Part shown: piece by piece, positions 47,418 to 53,737 of the stretch
Layout of the letters: each line of letters starts with the position of its first letter
How positions within the stretch are numbered: position 1 is the stretch's first letter
Assembly: GCA_944389295.1 (NCBI GenBank)
Contig: CALXLV010000031.1
Coordinates: 1 to 64,000, forward strand
Length of the DNA stretch: 64,000 nt
Reading direction: 5' to 3'
DNA from: an uncultured Spirochaetaceae bacterium
Lineage (GTDB): Bacteria > Spirochaetota > Spirochaetia > Sphaerochaetales > Sphaerochaetaceae
The notes under the pieces: model-generated
The model's input: only the letters and a program-made list of their open reading frames with translations
Told to the model about the DNA's origin: nothing
Database searches by the model: none
Made by a program: the position numbers and the translations under genes

Positions 47418-47951
47418 TTATTCTTCCTGATCTGTCGATCTGAACACCAGCGTGGCTATGAATGAGGATATGCGCTCCACAGGCCACTGGAAGCCGCCGT
47501 CCATCCACTCCTTGACGATTCCGGAAACCCCGTTGATGCAGAATATGAGCTCCATGCGTCCCTCTTCTTTGTCGCTGCTGAACACAATTCCTGAATACTT
47601 GTCCATAACAGCGGAGATGAGCTCTTCTGCGAAGAAGCTGTCCACAGAGGCGGACATCAGGACTCGGAAGGTATCGCCGTTGTCCTTTATGTACTGCATG
47701 AACGGTATGAGCGAATCCAGAAAGGACTTGTGCGATGGATCGAACTCCGGCAGCTGTGAGAGTATGTCTTTCTCGATCTCGTCTATGAGATCACGGCGGC
47801 AGGAGTAGTATGCGTAGAAGGTGCTTCTGTTGACATCGGCCTTGGCGCAGATTGCCTTTATCGTTATATCCTCGAATGGCTGCGTCCTGAGAAGCTCCGT
47901 CATCGCTTTCTTGAGATAGCCTTTCGTCCTTGCTGTTCTCTTGTTATCCAT
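47418..47951 (-). CDS. TetR family regulator
   Basis: 177 residues. Helix-turn-helix FEDITIKAICAKADVNRSTFYAYYSCRRDLIDEIE; C-terminal helical domain similar to the TetR_C_8 type (FRVLMSASVDSFFAEE). Target unknown: neighbours are convergent rarA and divergent guaD. No SD; TTGACA-N17-TACCAT ends 6 bases before ATG (leaderless). It converges with rarA, one base apart. Confidence 0.88.
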   Translation of the reverse strand: MDNKRTARTKGYLKKAMTELLRTQPFEDITIKAICAKADVNRSTFYAYYSCRRDLIDEIEKDILSQLPEFDPSHKSFLDSLIPFMQYIKDNGDTFRVLMSASVDSFFAEELISAVMDKYSGIVFSSDKEEGRMELIFCINGVSGIVKEWMDGGFQWPVERISSFIATLVFRSTDQEE

Positions 47952-47986: not shown

Positions 47987-48015
47987 CAAAATGGAGGCAT
48001 TTCCTCTTTCCTTGT

Positions 48016-48098
48016 GCTATAATGCATCCGAGGACTGTATAAGCCTGCGATATGGGCGGGCGTATCTACAGGCTGCCGTCAACACCTAACTACAGTCC
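48016..48098 (+). ncRNA. Guanine-class purine riboswitch with extended -10 promoter
   Basis: Extended -10 TGCTATAAT at 48015-48023. P1 is GGACTGT (48032-48038) with ACAGTCC (48092-48098). P2 is GCCTGC / GCGGGC around loop GATATGG, which is identical to the family consensus. J2/3 is GTATCTAC (consensus GTTTCTAC). P3 loop is CCGTCAA. J3/1 AACTAC places C at the base-discriminating position, so the ligand should be guanine or hypoxanthine. P3 appears to have a bulged C, and J2/3 has A where most members have U. It ends 11 bases before guaD ATG, so SD masking is the likely mechanism. Confidence 0.85.
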
Positions 48099-48109
48099 CG
48101 GAGGTGATT

Positions 48110-49366
48110 ATGGCGGCTTATTCTGTGCATGGCGATCTTATCTGGACGGAGAGTGCGGGAGAGTTCCGCACCATGGAAGGCGGTTATCTTACTGTCGACG
48201 GCGGGAAGATCATCTCTGTTTCCCAAGACCGTCCCTCGTGTCCCGTGATCGATATGGCGGGAAAACTGGTGATTCCCGGTCTTTCCGATCTCCATCTGCA
48301 TGCGCCGCAGTACGCTTTCGCAGGCCTTTATATGGATGAGGAGCTCCTTGAATGGCTTGAGAAGCATACATTCCCGGAGGAGGCGAAGTACGGGGATATG
48401 GAGTATGCAGATAAAGCCTATTCAATCCTCGCTGACGATCTGCGGCGCGGTGCAACGACGAGAGTGTCGGTTTTCGGCACTATACATACCGATTCGGTGC
48501 TTCTCCTTATGAAAAAACTCGAGGAGGCGGGACTTTCAGGTTATGCCGGCAAGGTCAACATGGACCGCAATTCTCCCGACATTCTCCGCGAGGAAACTGA
48601 GGAGTCGATACGCGAAACAGAGCGTTTCCTCAGAGCCGCCGCATCATTCAGGGAGATACGTCCGATAATAACTCCCCGTTTCATCCCCTCATGCTCCGAT
48701 GAACTGATGGAAGCGCTTGGCAGGATCGTGCTCCGCGATTCACTTCCCGTACAGACGCATCTTGACGAGAACCTCTCGGAAGTTGAGTGGGTGAGGGAAC
48801 TCTGCCCATTTTCATCAAGCTATGCGGATGCCTACAAACATTTCCACATGCTTGGAGAGACTCCCGCGATAATGGCGCACTGTGTCTGGCCCGTTGAGAG
48901 CGAGATGGAAATGATGAGAGAGGGCGGCGTGTTCGTCGCGCACGCTCCGTCATCCAATACGAATCTCGCCTCAGGCATCGCCCCTGTCAGGAAGTTCATG
49001 GAGAAGGGCATCCATGTAGGCCTCGCTACCGATGTCGCAGGAGGCTCGTCGCTCTCGATGTTCCAGATGATCCACGACGCGGTCTCTGTAAGCAAGCTCA
49101 GGTGGAGACTTGTCGACAGCAGTGAGAAGCCCCTTCTGTTCTCGGAGGCCTTCTATCTTGCCAGCAAGGGCGGCGGTGCGTTCTTCGGCAGGACAGGTTC
49201 ATTTGAGCCGGGCTATGATGCGGATATTGTCGTGATAGATGACAGCCGCTGCCGCACTGTCCTTCACGATCAGCTTTCTCCTGCAGAGCGCCTTGAGTTC
49301 TACACATACAGGCATCCCGATGAATTTGTGACTGCGAAATTCGTGAAGGGTAGGCGGCTCTTCTGA
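48110..49366 (+). CDS. guaD: Guanine deaminase
   Basis: 418 residues, amidohydrolase of the guanine deaminase family: metal motif SDLHLHAPQYAFAG, FIPSCSDELM, QTHLDENLSEVEW, HCVWP and THLASGIAPV-type SSNTNLASGIAPVRKF and GLATDVAGGSSLSMF. It converts guanine to xanthine and ammonia. ATG 48110 follows SD GGAGGTG. The riboswitch just upstream supports the substrate. The next gene begins 29 bases after its stop. Confidence 0.93.
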   Translation: MAAYSVHGDLIWTESAGEFRTMEGGYLTVDGGKIISVSQDRPSCPVIDMAGKLVIPGLSDLHLHAPQYAFAGLYMDEELLEWLEKHTFPEEAKYGDMEYADKAYSILADDLRRGATTRVSVFGTIHTDSVLLLMKKLEEAGLSGYAGKVNMDRNSPDILREETEESIRETERFLRAAASFREIRPIITPRFIPSCSDELMEALGRIVLRDSLPVQTHLDENLSEVEWVRELCPFSSSYADAYKHFHMLGETPAIMAHCVWPVESEMEMMREGGVFVAHAPSSNTNLASGIAPVRKFMEKGIHVGLATDVAGGSSLSMFQMIHDAVSVSKLRWRLVDSSEKPLLFSEAFYLASKGGGAFFGRTGSFEPGYDADIVVIDDSRCRTVLHDQLSPAERLEFYTYRHPDEFVTAKFVKGRRLF

Positions 49367-49395
49367 TAAACCGTAGAATGGAGGCGGAGGCAGAG

Positions 49396-49650
49396 ATGGA
49401 GAGTGACGGCAGCCGCGTGGCTGTTATAGGAATAATAGTTGAGAACGGGGATATGGTGGAGAATGTGAACAGCCTCCTCCATCAGTACAGCCAGTATGTG
49501 ATCGGAAGGATGGGGCTGCCGTACCGCAGGCGCGGCATCAGTATCATAAGCGTTGTCGTGGATGCCCCCTCCGATGTGATCTCAGGCCTTTCCGGCAAGC
49601 TCGGAAGGCTCAGCGGCGTTACAAGTCAGGTTCTCTACACAAAGAAATGA
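49396..49650 (+). CDS. TM1266-family iron-only hydrogenase regulator
   Basis: 84 residues from ATG 49396 (an earlier ATG at 49378 lacks a site; GGAGGCGGAGG is before the second). RVAVIGIIVENGDMVENVNSLLHQYSQYVIGRMGLPYR matches the small TM1266-type putative iron-only hydrogenase system regulator, an ACT-like fold. It overlaps hydE by ATGA, as in other organisms. Confidence 0.8.
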   Translation: MESDGSRVAVIGIIVENGDMVENVNSLLHQYSQYVIGRMGLPYRRRGISIISVVVDAPSDVISGLSGKLGRLSGVTSQVLYTKK

Positions 49651-50687
49651 GCTGCGGAAACCTTTTGAAGCGTCTCCGCAGCGGAGCGATGCTGGACAAG
49701 AGTGAGTGGGCAGCTTTCATAGACTGTGATGATGAAGGCTTTGATGAAGAGCTTTTCTCCGCTGCAGCGGAGATCCGCGACAGAGTGTACGGGCGGAAAG
49801 TCTTTGCCCGCGGACTTGTGGAGTTCACGTCTTTCTGCCGCAATGACTGCTTTTACTGCGGTCTCAGACGCAGCAACAAGAATGCAGAGCGTTACCGCCT
49901 TTCAGAGAATGAAATCGTAGAAACGTGCCGAAATGGGTATGAAACTGGATTCAGAACTTTTGTGCTGCAGGGCGGCGAGGATTTGCATTTCACCGATGAT
50001 CGCATGGTCTCCATCATCAGAGCGATAAAGAAGAACTGTCCTGAAGCAGCTGTGACAATAAGCATCGGAGAGAGGAGTGCAGAGAGCTACAGGCTGATGA
50101 AAGAGGCCGGAGCCGACAGATATCTCCTCCGTCACGAGACTGCGGACCATGACCACTACTCAATACTTCATCCCTCATCGATGTCGCTGGACAAACGCAT
50201 CAGCTGCCTCAGAACTCTCAAGGCACTTGGCTATCAGACGGGAGCCGGGATGATGACAGGTTCTCCTGGTTCATCAGCGCTGACTCTTGCCGAGGATATG
50301 GTGTTCCTGCAGGATCTCCGGCCGGAGATGGTCGGAATCGGGCCGTTCATACCTCATCATGACACTCCCTTCAGAGAGATGAAGCGAGGCAGCGTCGCAC
50401 TTACTCTGAGAATGCTTGCTCTCGTGCGCATCGCGCTTCCGCGTGTGCTTCTTCCTGCAACAACAGCTCTTGGAACAGCGGAGGAGGGCGGAGAGATAAA
50501 GGGATTTAATGCCGGCGCCAATGTCGTGATGCCGAATCTTACTCCTGTGAGCGTGCGGAAGAAGTATCTTCTCTATGACAACAAGAAGATAACCGGAGCC
50601 GAGGCTGCCGAGAACATCGATTTAATTCGCGAGAAATTCAGAGCGGCAGGATATGAACTCTCGCTCTCCCGCGGCGATGCCCTCTGA
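49647..50687 (+). CDS. hydE: [FeFe] hydrogenase maturase HydE
   Basis: 346 residues. Radical SAM cluster CRNDCFYCGLR near residue 67, FVLQGGEDLHFTDDRMV, LLRHETADHDHYS, GAGMMTGSPG and GIGPFIPHHDTPF. HydE acts on the [Fe(CO)2(CN)(Cys)] synthon made by HydG. It is coupled to the TM1266 gene and probably shares the transcript that starts at the guanine riboswitch. Confidence 0.93.
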   Translation: MSCGNLLKRLRSGAMLDKSEWAAFIDCDDEGFDEELFSAAAEIRDRVYGRKVFARGLVEFTSFCRNDCFYCGLRRSNKNAERYRLSENEIVETCRNGYETGFRTFVLQGGEDLHFTDDRMVSIIRAIKKNCPEAAVTISIGERSAESYRLMKEAGADRYLLRHETADHDHYSILHPSSMSLDKRISCLRTLKALGYQTGAGMMTGSPGSSALTLAEDMVFLQDLRPEMVGIGPFIPHHDTPFREMKRGSVALTLRMLALVRIALPRVLLPATTALGTAEEGGEIKGFNAGANVVMPNLTPVSVRKKYLLYDNKKITGAEAAENIDLIREKFRAAGYELSLSRGDAL

Positions 50688-50983
50688 GCCATTATTTTCT
50701 GATAGCTTTTATATCATCATTATTCACTGCTGTATCGTGATGCTGCGGAAACAATATCATACCACTCATAAACACAGACTGAACGATACGGCATCAAAGT
50801 GATATCATTCGCTTATTGACATTTATGATACTGCTTCACATTGAATTCATCATATTCATGATAATAGTTATATAATTTAACATGTAATAAATATAATAAA
50901 TAGTATCATAACTAAATTATTATTGTGCAAATATTCTGTAAGCACCATTTCATTCTCATTTGTGGTGATCAATGCTGTGAAAT
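50688..50983. promoter_or_regulatory. AT-rich 296-bp region with repeated TATCAT motifs
   Basis: No gene seen. TATCAT or its complement occurs at 50712, 50755, 50803, 50825, 50858 and 50904, and again at 50996 in the next feature. It is far more AT-rich than its flanks. TATCAT is also the -10 used by nearby leaderless genes, so it may hold several promoters or a binding-site array for hydG-hydF. Confidence 0.45.
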
Positions 50984-51064
50984 CTGTTATCCTCATATCA
51001 TCCTGAGTCGAGGATACGTTCCGGGACGTGGGAAATCATAACAGCCGAAGGGGAAGCGGTGCTG
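50984..51064 (+). ncRNA. Candidate structured leader RNA of hydG-hydF
   Basis: Nested pairing: CTGTTAT (50984-50990) with ATAACAG (51038-51044) encloses ATCCTC/GAGGAT (50989-50994 with 51010-51015) and ACGT/ACGT (51016-51019 with 51026-51029). A second hairpin pairs CAG/CTG and CCG/CGG (51042-51064), sharing CAG with the first closing stem. The two are mutually exclusive at that CAG, as in riboswitch or attenuator switches. It sits just before the hydG ribosome site. I cannot match it to a known class. Confidence 0.35.
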
Positions 51065-51080
51065 ACCCTGTGGAGGAATC

Positions 51081-52499
51081 ATGTACGACAAATATTCCAT
51101 GGTCGCTGATGATTTCATCAATGACGATGAAATCAAGGAGACGCTGAGGTATGCCGATGAGAACAGGCATAACGAGACTCTGATCCACTCTATAATAGAG
51201 AAGGCCAGGCTGAGGAAGGGACTTGACCACAGGGATGCTTCTGTACTTCTCGCATGCGACATTCCTGAGCTCAATGAGGAAGTCTACAGACTTGCCGGCG
51301 AGATAAAGAGGGATTTCTACGGCGACAGAATCGTCATGTTCGCACCCCTCTACCTCTCCAACTACTGCGTGAACGGATGCGTCTACTGTCCATATCATGC
51401 GAAGAACAAGCATATCGCAAGGAAAAAGCTGACGCAGGAGGAGATCGTGACTGAGGTGCTCGCACTGCAGGACATGGGACACAAGAGGCTTGCGATCGAG
51501 ACTGGCGAGGACCCCGTGAACTGTCCGATAGAGTATGTGCTTGAGTCGATAAAGACGATCTACTCGATAAAGCACCGCAACGGAGCGATAAGGCGCGTAA
51601 ACGTCAACATAGCTGCCACTACCGTTGAAAATTACCGCAGGCTCAAGGAAGCAGGGATTGGCACATATATTCTGTTTCAGGAGACATACCATAAGGAGAG
51701 CTACCTCAAGCTCCATCCGACAGGCCCCAAGCATGACTACAACTACCACACTGAAGCTATGGACAGGGCCATGGAGGGAGGAATCGACGATGTTGGCTGC
51801 GGCGTTCTCTTCGGACTTGAGCTCTACCGCTATGAGTTTGCCGGCCTTTTGATGCACGCGGAGCATCTCGAAGCTGTCCACGGCGTAGGCCCGCATACCA
51901 TCTCAGTGCCGCGCGTCAGGCATGCCGACGACATCGATCCCGATGAGTTCGACAACGGCATCGACGACGAGACATTCTGTAAGATCGTCGCCTGCATCCG
52001 CGTCGCCGTCCCGTACACCGGCATGATAATCTCCACTCGCGAGAATAAGAGCGTGAGGGAAAAGGTGCTCAAGCTCGGCGTCTCGCAGATCTCCGGAGGG
52101 TCGAGGACCAGCGTCGGAGGCTATGCCGTGCCTGAGGAAGAGGATGAGAACTCCGCCCAGTTCGACGTCAGCGACAACCGCACGCTCGACGAGGTTGTGA
52201 GGTGGCTGATAGAACTCGGCTATGTACCGTCGTTCTGCACGGCGTGCTACAGGGAAGGCCGCACAGGCGACAGATTCATGTCGCTCTGCAAATCAGGGCA
52301 GATACAGAACTGCTGCCTTCCCAACGCCCTCCTGACGCTCAAGGAGTATCTCATTGATTACGCCTCTCCCGAGACGAGGAAAAAGGGCGAGGAGCTCATA
52401 GAACGCCAGCTTCTCGACATACCTAACGAGAAAACGAGAGCGACCGCTGCGAAGTATCTTGCCGCCATAGAGGAGGGCAGGAGAGATTTCCGCTTCTAG
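51081..52499 (+). CDS. hydG: [FeFe] hydrogenase maturase HydG
   Basis: 472 residues. Radical SAM motif CVNGCVYCPYHAKN near residue 96, LAIETGEDPVNCPIEYV, ATTVENYRRLKEAGIGTYILFQETYH, SGGSRTSVGGYAVPEEEDENSAQF, and the C-terminal second cluster CTACYREGRTG...C. It cleaves tyrosine to make CO and CN for the H-cluster. GGAGG lies 5 bases before ATG. hydF follows 8 bases later. Confidence 0.95.
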   Translation: MYDKYSMVADDFINDDEIKETLRYADENRHNETLIHSIIEKARLRKGLDHRDASVLLACDIPELNEEVYRLAGEIKRDFYGDRIVMFAPLYLSNYCVNGCVYCPYHAKNKHIARKKLTQEEIVTEVLALQDMGHKRLAIETGEDPVNCPIEYVLESIKTIYSIKHRNGAIRRVNVNIAATTVENYRRLKEAGIGTYILFQETYHKESYLKLHPTGPKHDYNYHTEAMDRAMEGGIDDVGCGVLFGLELYRYEFAGLLMHAEHLEAVHGVGPHTISVPRVRHADDIDPDEFDNGIDDETFCKIVACIRVAVPYTGMIISTRENKSVREKVLKLGVSQISGGSRTSVGGYAVPEEEDENSAQFDVSDNRTLDEVVRWLIELGYVPSFCTACYREGRTGDRFMSLCKSGQIQNCCLPNALLTLKEYLIDYASPETRKKGEELIERQLLDIPNEKTRATAAKYLAAIEEGRRDFRF

Positions 52500-52507
52500 G
52501 AGGAGAG

Positions 52508-53737
52508 ATGTCTCTTAATTCCGCACCCTCATCCGAGAGGGTACATATTGCATTCTTCGGCATGAGAAACGCCGGGAAGTCAAGCCTGATGAACGCTGTG
52601 ATCAATCAGGATCTTTCCGTCGTCTCTCCCGTTGCCGGCACGACTACGGATATAGTCCGGAAGTCGATGGAGCTCCTGCCTGTCGGGCCTGTCGTCATGA
52701 TCGACACTCCCGGCCTTGATGACGAGGGAGAGCTCGGCGAACTGAGGAAGGGCAAGGCGGAGAGCATGATAGCCCGCTCCGATGCCGCTGTCATAGTGCT
52801 TGACAGCACAAAGCCAATTTCGGAGATGGAGCTCTCTCTGATCTCCCGTATCCTCTCGCTCCGCATTCCGTATGTCGTAGCAGTAAATAAATCTGATCTT
52901 GCTGGTGAGTATGATACTCAGCCTCTCATCTCCGCAGGCGTTGACAGACGTTTCATCGTCTCTGTAAGCGCTTTGGAGAAGAAGGGAATAAAAGAACTGA
53001 AGGAGAAGATTGCGGAGAGCATCGGGAGGGAGGAAGAGGAGAGGTTCATCGTCAGGGACCTCATCTCTCCCGGCGATCTTGTCATGCTCGTCATACCCGT
53101 GGATAAAGCGGCTCCGAAAGGGCGGCTTATTCTCCCGCAGCAGCAGACGATACGCGATATCCTTGACGGCGGCGGACGGTGCATTGCCGTGAAGGAGGAT
53201 GAGGTTGCCTCCACCATCTCGGAGCTGGGGAAGCACATACGTCTTGTCATCACTGACAGCCAGGTATTCGGGAAGGTATCAAAAGAGGTGCCTCCTTCCA
53301 TGCCGCTGACATCGTTCTCAATCCTTTTCGCGCGCTATAAAGGCAATCTGGAGCAGGCTGTTAAAGGCGTTGCCGCAATACGTACGCTTCCGGATGATGC
53401 GCGCATACTCATCTCCGAGGGGTGCACGCATCACAGGCAGTGCGGCGATATAGGCACAGAGAAGATTCCCAGCTGGCTGGAAGAGGCGGCGGGGCGGAAG
53501 CATGAGCTCTCATTCTCCTCTGGCACAGGATTTCCAGACGATCTTTCCCCTTATTCTCTTGTGATCCACTGCGGAGGCTGCATGCTTACAGAGAGAGAAA
53601 TGCGGAGACGGTACAGGAGCGCCGAGGACAGCGGAGTGCCGATGACGAACTACGGCATATTCATAGCCAGCGTCCACGGCATCCTCTCACGTGCTCTTGC
53701 CCCATTCCCTGAGATTCTCTCCTATCTGCAGCGGTAG
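52508..53737 (+). CDS. hydF: [FeFe] hydrogenase maturation GTPase HydF
   Basis: 409 residues. GTPase motifs GMRNAGKSSLMNAV (P-loop), SPVAGTTTDIVRKSMELLPVG (switch I) and DTPGLDDEG; the C-terminal [4Fe-4S] site has EGCTHHRQCGDIG and HCGGCML. It is the scaffold that delivers the di-iron unit to HydA. No hydA gene lies in this window. Its 3' end overlaps the NYN gene by 16 bases on the other strand. Confidence 0.94.
   Translation: MSLNSAPSSERVHIAFFGMRNAGKSSLMNAVINQDLSVVSPVAGTTTDIVRKSMELLPVGPVVMIDTPGLDDEGELGELRKGKAESMIARSDAAVIVLDSTKPISEMELSLISRILSLRIPYVVAVNKSDLAGEYDTQPLISAGVDRRFIVSVSALEKKGIKELKEKIAESIGREEEERFIVRDLISPGDLVMLVIPVDKAAPKGRLILPQQQTIRDILDGGGRCIAVKEDEVASTISELGKHIRLVITDSQVFGKVSKEVPPSMPLTSFSILFARYKGNLEQAVKGVAAIRTLPDDARILISEGCTHHRQCGDIGTEKIPSWLEEAAGRKHELSFSSGTGFPDDLSPYSLVIHCGGCMLTEREMRRRYRSAEDSGVPMTNYGIFIASVHGILSRALAPFPEILSYLQR

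Follow-up and report, generated by a model that had tools for sequence, protein, structure and literature searches.

The window, a stretch of 64,000 nucleotides from an uncultured Spirochaetaceae bacterium of the gut, carries on its forward strand a gene encoding a 418-residue protein (48110..49366, +) directly behind a purine riboswitch aptamer (48032..48098, +). The best family for the protein by far is the guanine deaminase family TIGR02967, at 337.8 bits yet below the curated cut-off of 375.4; the next families score 291 bits (also guanine deaminase) and then 201. The protein aligns end to end with PDB 2i9u (371 bits, 412 residues, 7-418) and also matches human guanine deaminase (2uz9, 234 bits), and its HxH, MAHC/MAHG and TDVAGG metal-site regions align with those of the solved guanine deaminases. 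This homology points to guanine as the substrate. Eleven nucleotides past the deaminase lie genes for a TM1266-type regulator and the [FeFe]-hydrogenase maturation proteins HydE, HydG and HydF (49378-53737), and the deaminase-TM1266/HydE order is conserved in many relatives; the riboswitch mRNA may reach into this maturation cluster. Ahead of the deaminase, both here and in many relatives whether or not they have the riboswitch, sits a divergent TetR-type regulator (47418-47951, -), which might also regulate the deaminase promoter.

An earlier note on this DNA had read the leader as a guanine riboswitch in front of a guanine deaminase and had named a covariance-model search as the check. When the window was scanned against Rfam with cmscan, RF00167 (Purine) alone exceeded its threshold, with no second family, matching 48015-48112 (+) at 50.5 bits against a curated gathering score of 37 (E 1.4e-5), as expected of a guanine-I member; a search of the whole genome for purine riboswitches returned this single match. 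Together with the TIGR02967 and solved-enzyme matches, this bears out the pairing of riboswitch and enzyme. The boundaries of the aptamer follow from the RF00167 match, the placement of P1 and the Shine-Dalgarno sequence (SD), and the pocket positions. All the elements named in the note are found on the + strand: P1 (48032-48039/48091-48098) with eight perfect pairs, J1/2 (48040-48042), P2 (48043-48048/48056-48061) closed by L2 GATATGG (48049-48055), J2/3 GTATCTAC (48062-48069), P3 (48070-48075/48083-48087) closed by L3 CCGTCAA (48076-48082), and J3/1 (48088-48090), in which C74 is the C at 48090. The L2 and L3 sequences, the presumed partners of a kissing contact, are both present. Two irregularities described in the note are also real, namely a bulged C in P3, at 48073, and an A in place of the conserved U of J2/3, at 48064, which is position 48.

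The motif occurs in 34 of 139 genomes of the family, 25 of them in the genus of the window, six in genus g2 and three in genus g15. The gene that follows the motif in the window's genus and in g2 is homologous to guanine deaminase (43-69% identity), the exception being one extra match in G007; for L023 the contig ends early and the first codons match the deaminase. In all, 31 aptamers of this one spirochaete family directly precede guanine deaminase, and the switch is lineage-wide within the family. Every genome of the genus (48/48) matches the deaminase query, a few with a weak, paralogue-level match alone. At five riboswitch-less deaminase orthologues (L107, L108, L109, L113 and L114) some 6 nt separate an extended -10 element from the SD, as though the aptamer had been cut out exactly from between promoter and SD. 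In the riboswitch-less loci that were inspected, no purine motif was found except in L126, where the match fell below threshold. A deaminase tree of 36 rows requires two changes of the riboswitch label, fewer than any of 500 shuffles; the pattern is compatible with an ancient riboswitch that was lost two or more times, on a tree whose root is uncertain and whose six riboswitch-less rows are an incomplete sample.

Comparison of the 31 relatives defines the binding pocket. Positions 21-23, 46, 47, 49-53, 74 and 75 are invariant, partly by construction, since the collection anchors fixed J1/2, UCUA and the CUA of J3/1, and left positions 46, 47, 48, 53 and 73 free. The nucleotides that contact guanine are U22, U51 and C74 (PMC9295807), and all three are conserved in 31 of 31 relatives, although these letters too were partly fixed by the anchors. 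The window aptamer has U22, U51 and C74 and junctions without insertions, as guanine-I aptamers do, and every position checked in its J1/2, J2/3 and J3/1 is canonical with the sole exception of position 48. That position varies freely (16 C, 9 U and 6 A), so the suggestion in the note that the J2/3 A might tune the pocket is unsupported, and we set it aside. A further function of P3, pairing with the SD and start codon as described below, would better explain why it is bulged and weak. To judge from its letters, the window has an ordinary guanine aptamer pocket, and guanine is its probable ligand. That another purine (hypoxanthine, xanthine or 2'-deoxyguanosine) is sensed instead seems very improbable: the departure of position 48 from the common U, the weak P3 and the G found at position 73 in 21 of the 31 relatives might hint at it, whereas the guanine contacts are kept throughout and the product of the downstream gene acts on guanine by homology. 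The variation at position 73 (A73 of J3/1; A in 8/31 including the window, C in 2/31) is an oddity of the lineage. Other classes on the same scaffold can be told apart at defined positions. Adenine riboswitches have U74, and here 48090 is C, as in 31 of 31 relatives. Guanine-II and xanthine-II riboswitches carry a one- or two-nucleotide insertion in J2/3, xanthine-II also having U51G (PMC9295807); the window J2/3 is 8 nt long (GUAUCUAC), without such an insertion, and keeps U51.

Upstream of P1 lies a plausible promoter, recognisable as an extended -10 element, TGCTATAAT (48015..48023, +), with no notable -35. The earlier placement of a promoter just upstream is plausible for an extended -10 alone: a scan for a plain sigma-70 promoter called none on the + strand before the aptamer because the -35 is poor. 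The pattern TGnTAnnnT recurs 5-11 nt upstream of P1 in 24 of 31 relatives. Transcription therefore probably begins at P1 or immediately upstream of it (predicted start at about 48030, some 2 nt upstream), and the aptamer would make up nearly the whole 5' UTR. The SD, GGAGGTGA (48100..48107, +), follows P1 after a gap of 1 nt, just where the note had put it. The deaminase starts at ATG 48110; an alternative start in the ORF list, GTG 48104, falls within the SD. Terminator-based control was also considered and rejected: a search between aptamer and ATG found no transcriptional terminator, the window's subgroup likewise lacks one there, and a terminator-like site at 47993-48007 precedes the aptamer. 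The window's subgroup has no separate expression platform.

An unconstrained fold was computed for the leader plus 30 nt; the resulting energies are those of secondary structure, with ligand, kissing loops and co-transcriptional folding outside the calculation. In the predicted ligand-free fold and its pair probabilities, a sequestering arm is built from parts of the aptamer itself (48072-48079 + 48083-48087, +). GCUGCCGU (48072-48079, the P3 5' strand and L3) pairs with AUGGCGGC (48110-48117, +), which reaches from the start codon to the third codon; CACCU (48083-48087, the P3 3' strand) pairs with AGGUG (48102-48106) of the SD. The P1 5' strand is also diverted, CUGUA (48035-48039) pairing with UACAG (48067-48071) at the J2/3-P3 boundary and not with its P1 partner. 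As modelled, this free hairpin and the aptamer fold are mutually exclusive, and therefore guanine binding should free the SD. Across the predicted folds and family controls, SD and AUG are paired solely in the ligand-free state, as in a translational ON switch. Most of the window's subgroup likewise pairs SD and AUG with P3/L3 when folded freely, and a like fold, P3 5' strand with AUG and P3 3' strand with SD, is predicted for L006, L008, L016, L019, L020, L022-L025, L029 and L030. Other relatives seem, in the models, to reach a similar end by different pairing: in L013 and L018 through a CCUC/GGAGG hairpin that overlaps P1, in L007, L009 and L017 through a hairpin linked to P1, and in several members of g2 through pairing of P1 or the linker. 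A family-wide role of J2/3 (GUCUCU) as anti-SD was dropped, as it was not significant in the duplex permutation test described below.

Enforcing the aptamer lowered the median cost of opening the SD from 5.5 to 1.8 kcal/mol across 31 leaders (p=2e-8), a comparison that is biased on its own because enforcement removes pairing partners; tail-swap, duplex and shuffle controls were therefore added. For the window the calculated gap is 4.8 kcal/mol. In L012, L021, L027 and L028 the SD is predicted to become hardly more accessible, or not at all. When tails were swapped between species, matched pairs cost 5.99 kcal/mol and mismatched pairs 4.47 (p=5e-5 for all leaders, p=5e-4 for the 16-member subgroup and p=0.035 for the 11-member core, kinship ignored in each). 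Because the SD-AUG spacing differs and MAFFT misaligns the inner stem, covariation by alignment column did not work there, and a permutation test of duplexes was adopted in its place; among 24 element, target and species-set combinations, the P3 3' strand/tail duplex gave p=0.0035 in the window's subgroup, uncorrected for those combinations and for kinship. By the swap calculation, native combinations of aptamer and tail conceal the SD more fully, family-wide, than exchanged ones do.

The pairing of SD and AUG with P3 could nevertheless be fortuitous, a conserved L3 (CCGU) meeting AUGG and a strong SD while the aptamer works in some other way. The window alone does not reach significance against tail shuffles (p=0.12), the outer helix is nearly invariant and so shows almost no covariation, and the tests ignore kinship. 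At the level of the family, however, the swap and duplex tests speak against coincidence, as do the shuffles (Fisher p=2e-4, kinship again ignored), and the inner-stem sequences differ among species while staying complementary (AGAACC/GGUUCU in L030, AACCC/GGGUU in L016, UAACUCC/GGAGUU in L029). We regard coincidence as quite unlikely.

These data also bear on the direction of control. Most members of the window's subgroup have the SD within 0-2 nt of P1 or overlapping it, and guanine riboswitches are mostly OFF switches (PMC9295807); guanine might then stabilise P1 into a rigid helix that touches the SD and blocks the ribosome, so that deaminase synthesis falls. Such an OFF switch is unlikely, in that the aptamer fold leaves the SD open and the free fold pairs it, the swap and shuffle controls point to sequestration without ligand, and it would make little sense metabolically to repress an enzyme by the very ligand that it destroys. 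A riboswitch of guanine-I type that turns on translation of the guanine deaminase is instead what we consider likely from the models. The ON direction, which the note had thought more natural for a catabolic gene, gains computational support from the exclusive SD/AUG-sequestering fold predicted here and from coevolution at family level, and would be expected to hold in cells.

In such an ON switch, scarce guanine would leave the aptamer to open and its P3 arm to be reused: the more stable hairpin would take P3, placing its 5' strand with L3 on the start codon and its 3' strand on the SD, and ribosomes would be unable to start. Plentiful guanine would bind the junction through C74, U51 and U22 and lock P1, P3 and the L2-L3 contact; the aptamer being transcribed first, this could happen before the SD emerges. 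With SD and AUG free, deaminase would be made and guanine converted to xanthine. Nanomolar binding at micromolar guanine could plausibly pay for the 4.8 kcal/mol gap, tertiary contacts being outside the calculation, and that more guanine should call for more deaminase is metabolically sensible. On balance, we lean towards a self-contained translational ON switch in one spirochaete family, in which a standard guanine aptamer spans the gap from promoter to SD, the P3 arm and the conserved L3 double as anti-initiator without a separate platform, and the whole is dedicated to guanine breakdown.

The sensor type is well known; the unusual features are the gene, an ON direction (predicted) and the manner in which the start signal would be hidden. 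With RF00167 guanine-I riboswitches such as that of B. subtilis xpt-pbuX, the aptamer shares the three-way junction, the L2 and L3 sequences and all guanine-contacting nucleotides. Those riboswitches, however, usually lower the expression of purine biosynthesis, salvage and uptake genes, whereas here the gene is catabolic, no terminator is present and the switch is predicted to act by release of SD and AUG. The add riboswitch of V. vulnificus is an adenine-sensing (U74) translational ON switch before adenosine deaminase, its SD and AUG hidden without ligand. It has in common with the present locus the purine scaffold, the translational ON direction (here predicted) and a purine deaminase downstream, but in the spirochaete switch position 74 is C, the gene is guanine deaminase, and the sequestering arm would be made of L3 and both strands of P3. 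Guanine-II, xanthine-II and guanosine-sensing variants also use the purine scaffold and are predicted ON switches, the guanosine-sensing variant preceding a nucleoside hydrolase that degrades its ligand (PMC9295807); they have altered junctions, occur in Firmicutes and control other genes, whereas J2/3 here has the guanine-I length. Some NMT1-motif xanthine/uric acid riboswitches precede guanine-deaminase-like amidohydrolases (PMC7373994), with an unrelated RNA architecture and a different ligand. A search of open-access papers turned up no guanine riboswitch reported ahead of a guanine deaminase gene. Translational purine ON switches (add) and predicted ON guanine switches (guanine-II and guanosine variants; PMC9295807) are already known; the dedicated association with guanine deaminase and, if the models are right, an aptamer arm that doubles as anti-initiator are new. 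If true, this would be a natural, very compact guanine-activated translational switch, with the logic of the best-studied aptamer scaffold reversed, and a useful small ON part. Guanine riboswitches would also extend beyond the sparing of guanine synthesis to a feedback-driven breakdown of guanine, and would do so in a lineage in which purE is not seen in the window's own genome. Neither PurE (PF00731) nor XPRTase (TIGR01744) was matched in that genome, which is 87% complete, and most genomes of the subgroup likewise gave no strong PurE match; judging from these absent matches in draft genomes, the lineage may depend on salvaged purines.

In a sample of the phylum, purine riboswitches also precede other genes, some of which, by reading of their translations, appear to serve purine biosynthesis or uptake (purE-, purL-, purC- and permease-like). 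In one group, apparently Brachyspira (L075-L084 and L086), a purine riboswitch stands before a gene of the 8-oxoguanine deaminase family (590.9 bits, cut-off 532), and the predicted folds of L075 and L082 pair L3 with the SD. In an Oscillospiraceae locus (L052:2331-2501) a purine aptamer lies 5' of guanine deaminase together with a strong terminator that overlaps the 3' strand of P1 with its 5' arm, predicting a transcriptional ON switch. Finally, at G211:C2:224183-224449 (L073) two purine riboswitches form a divergent pair on opposite strands, about 70 nt apart.
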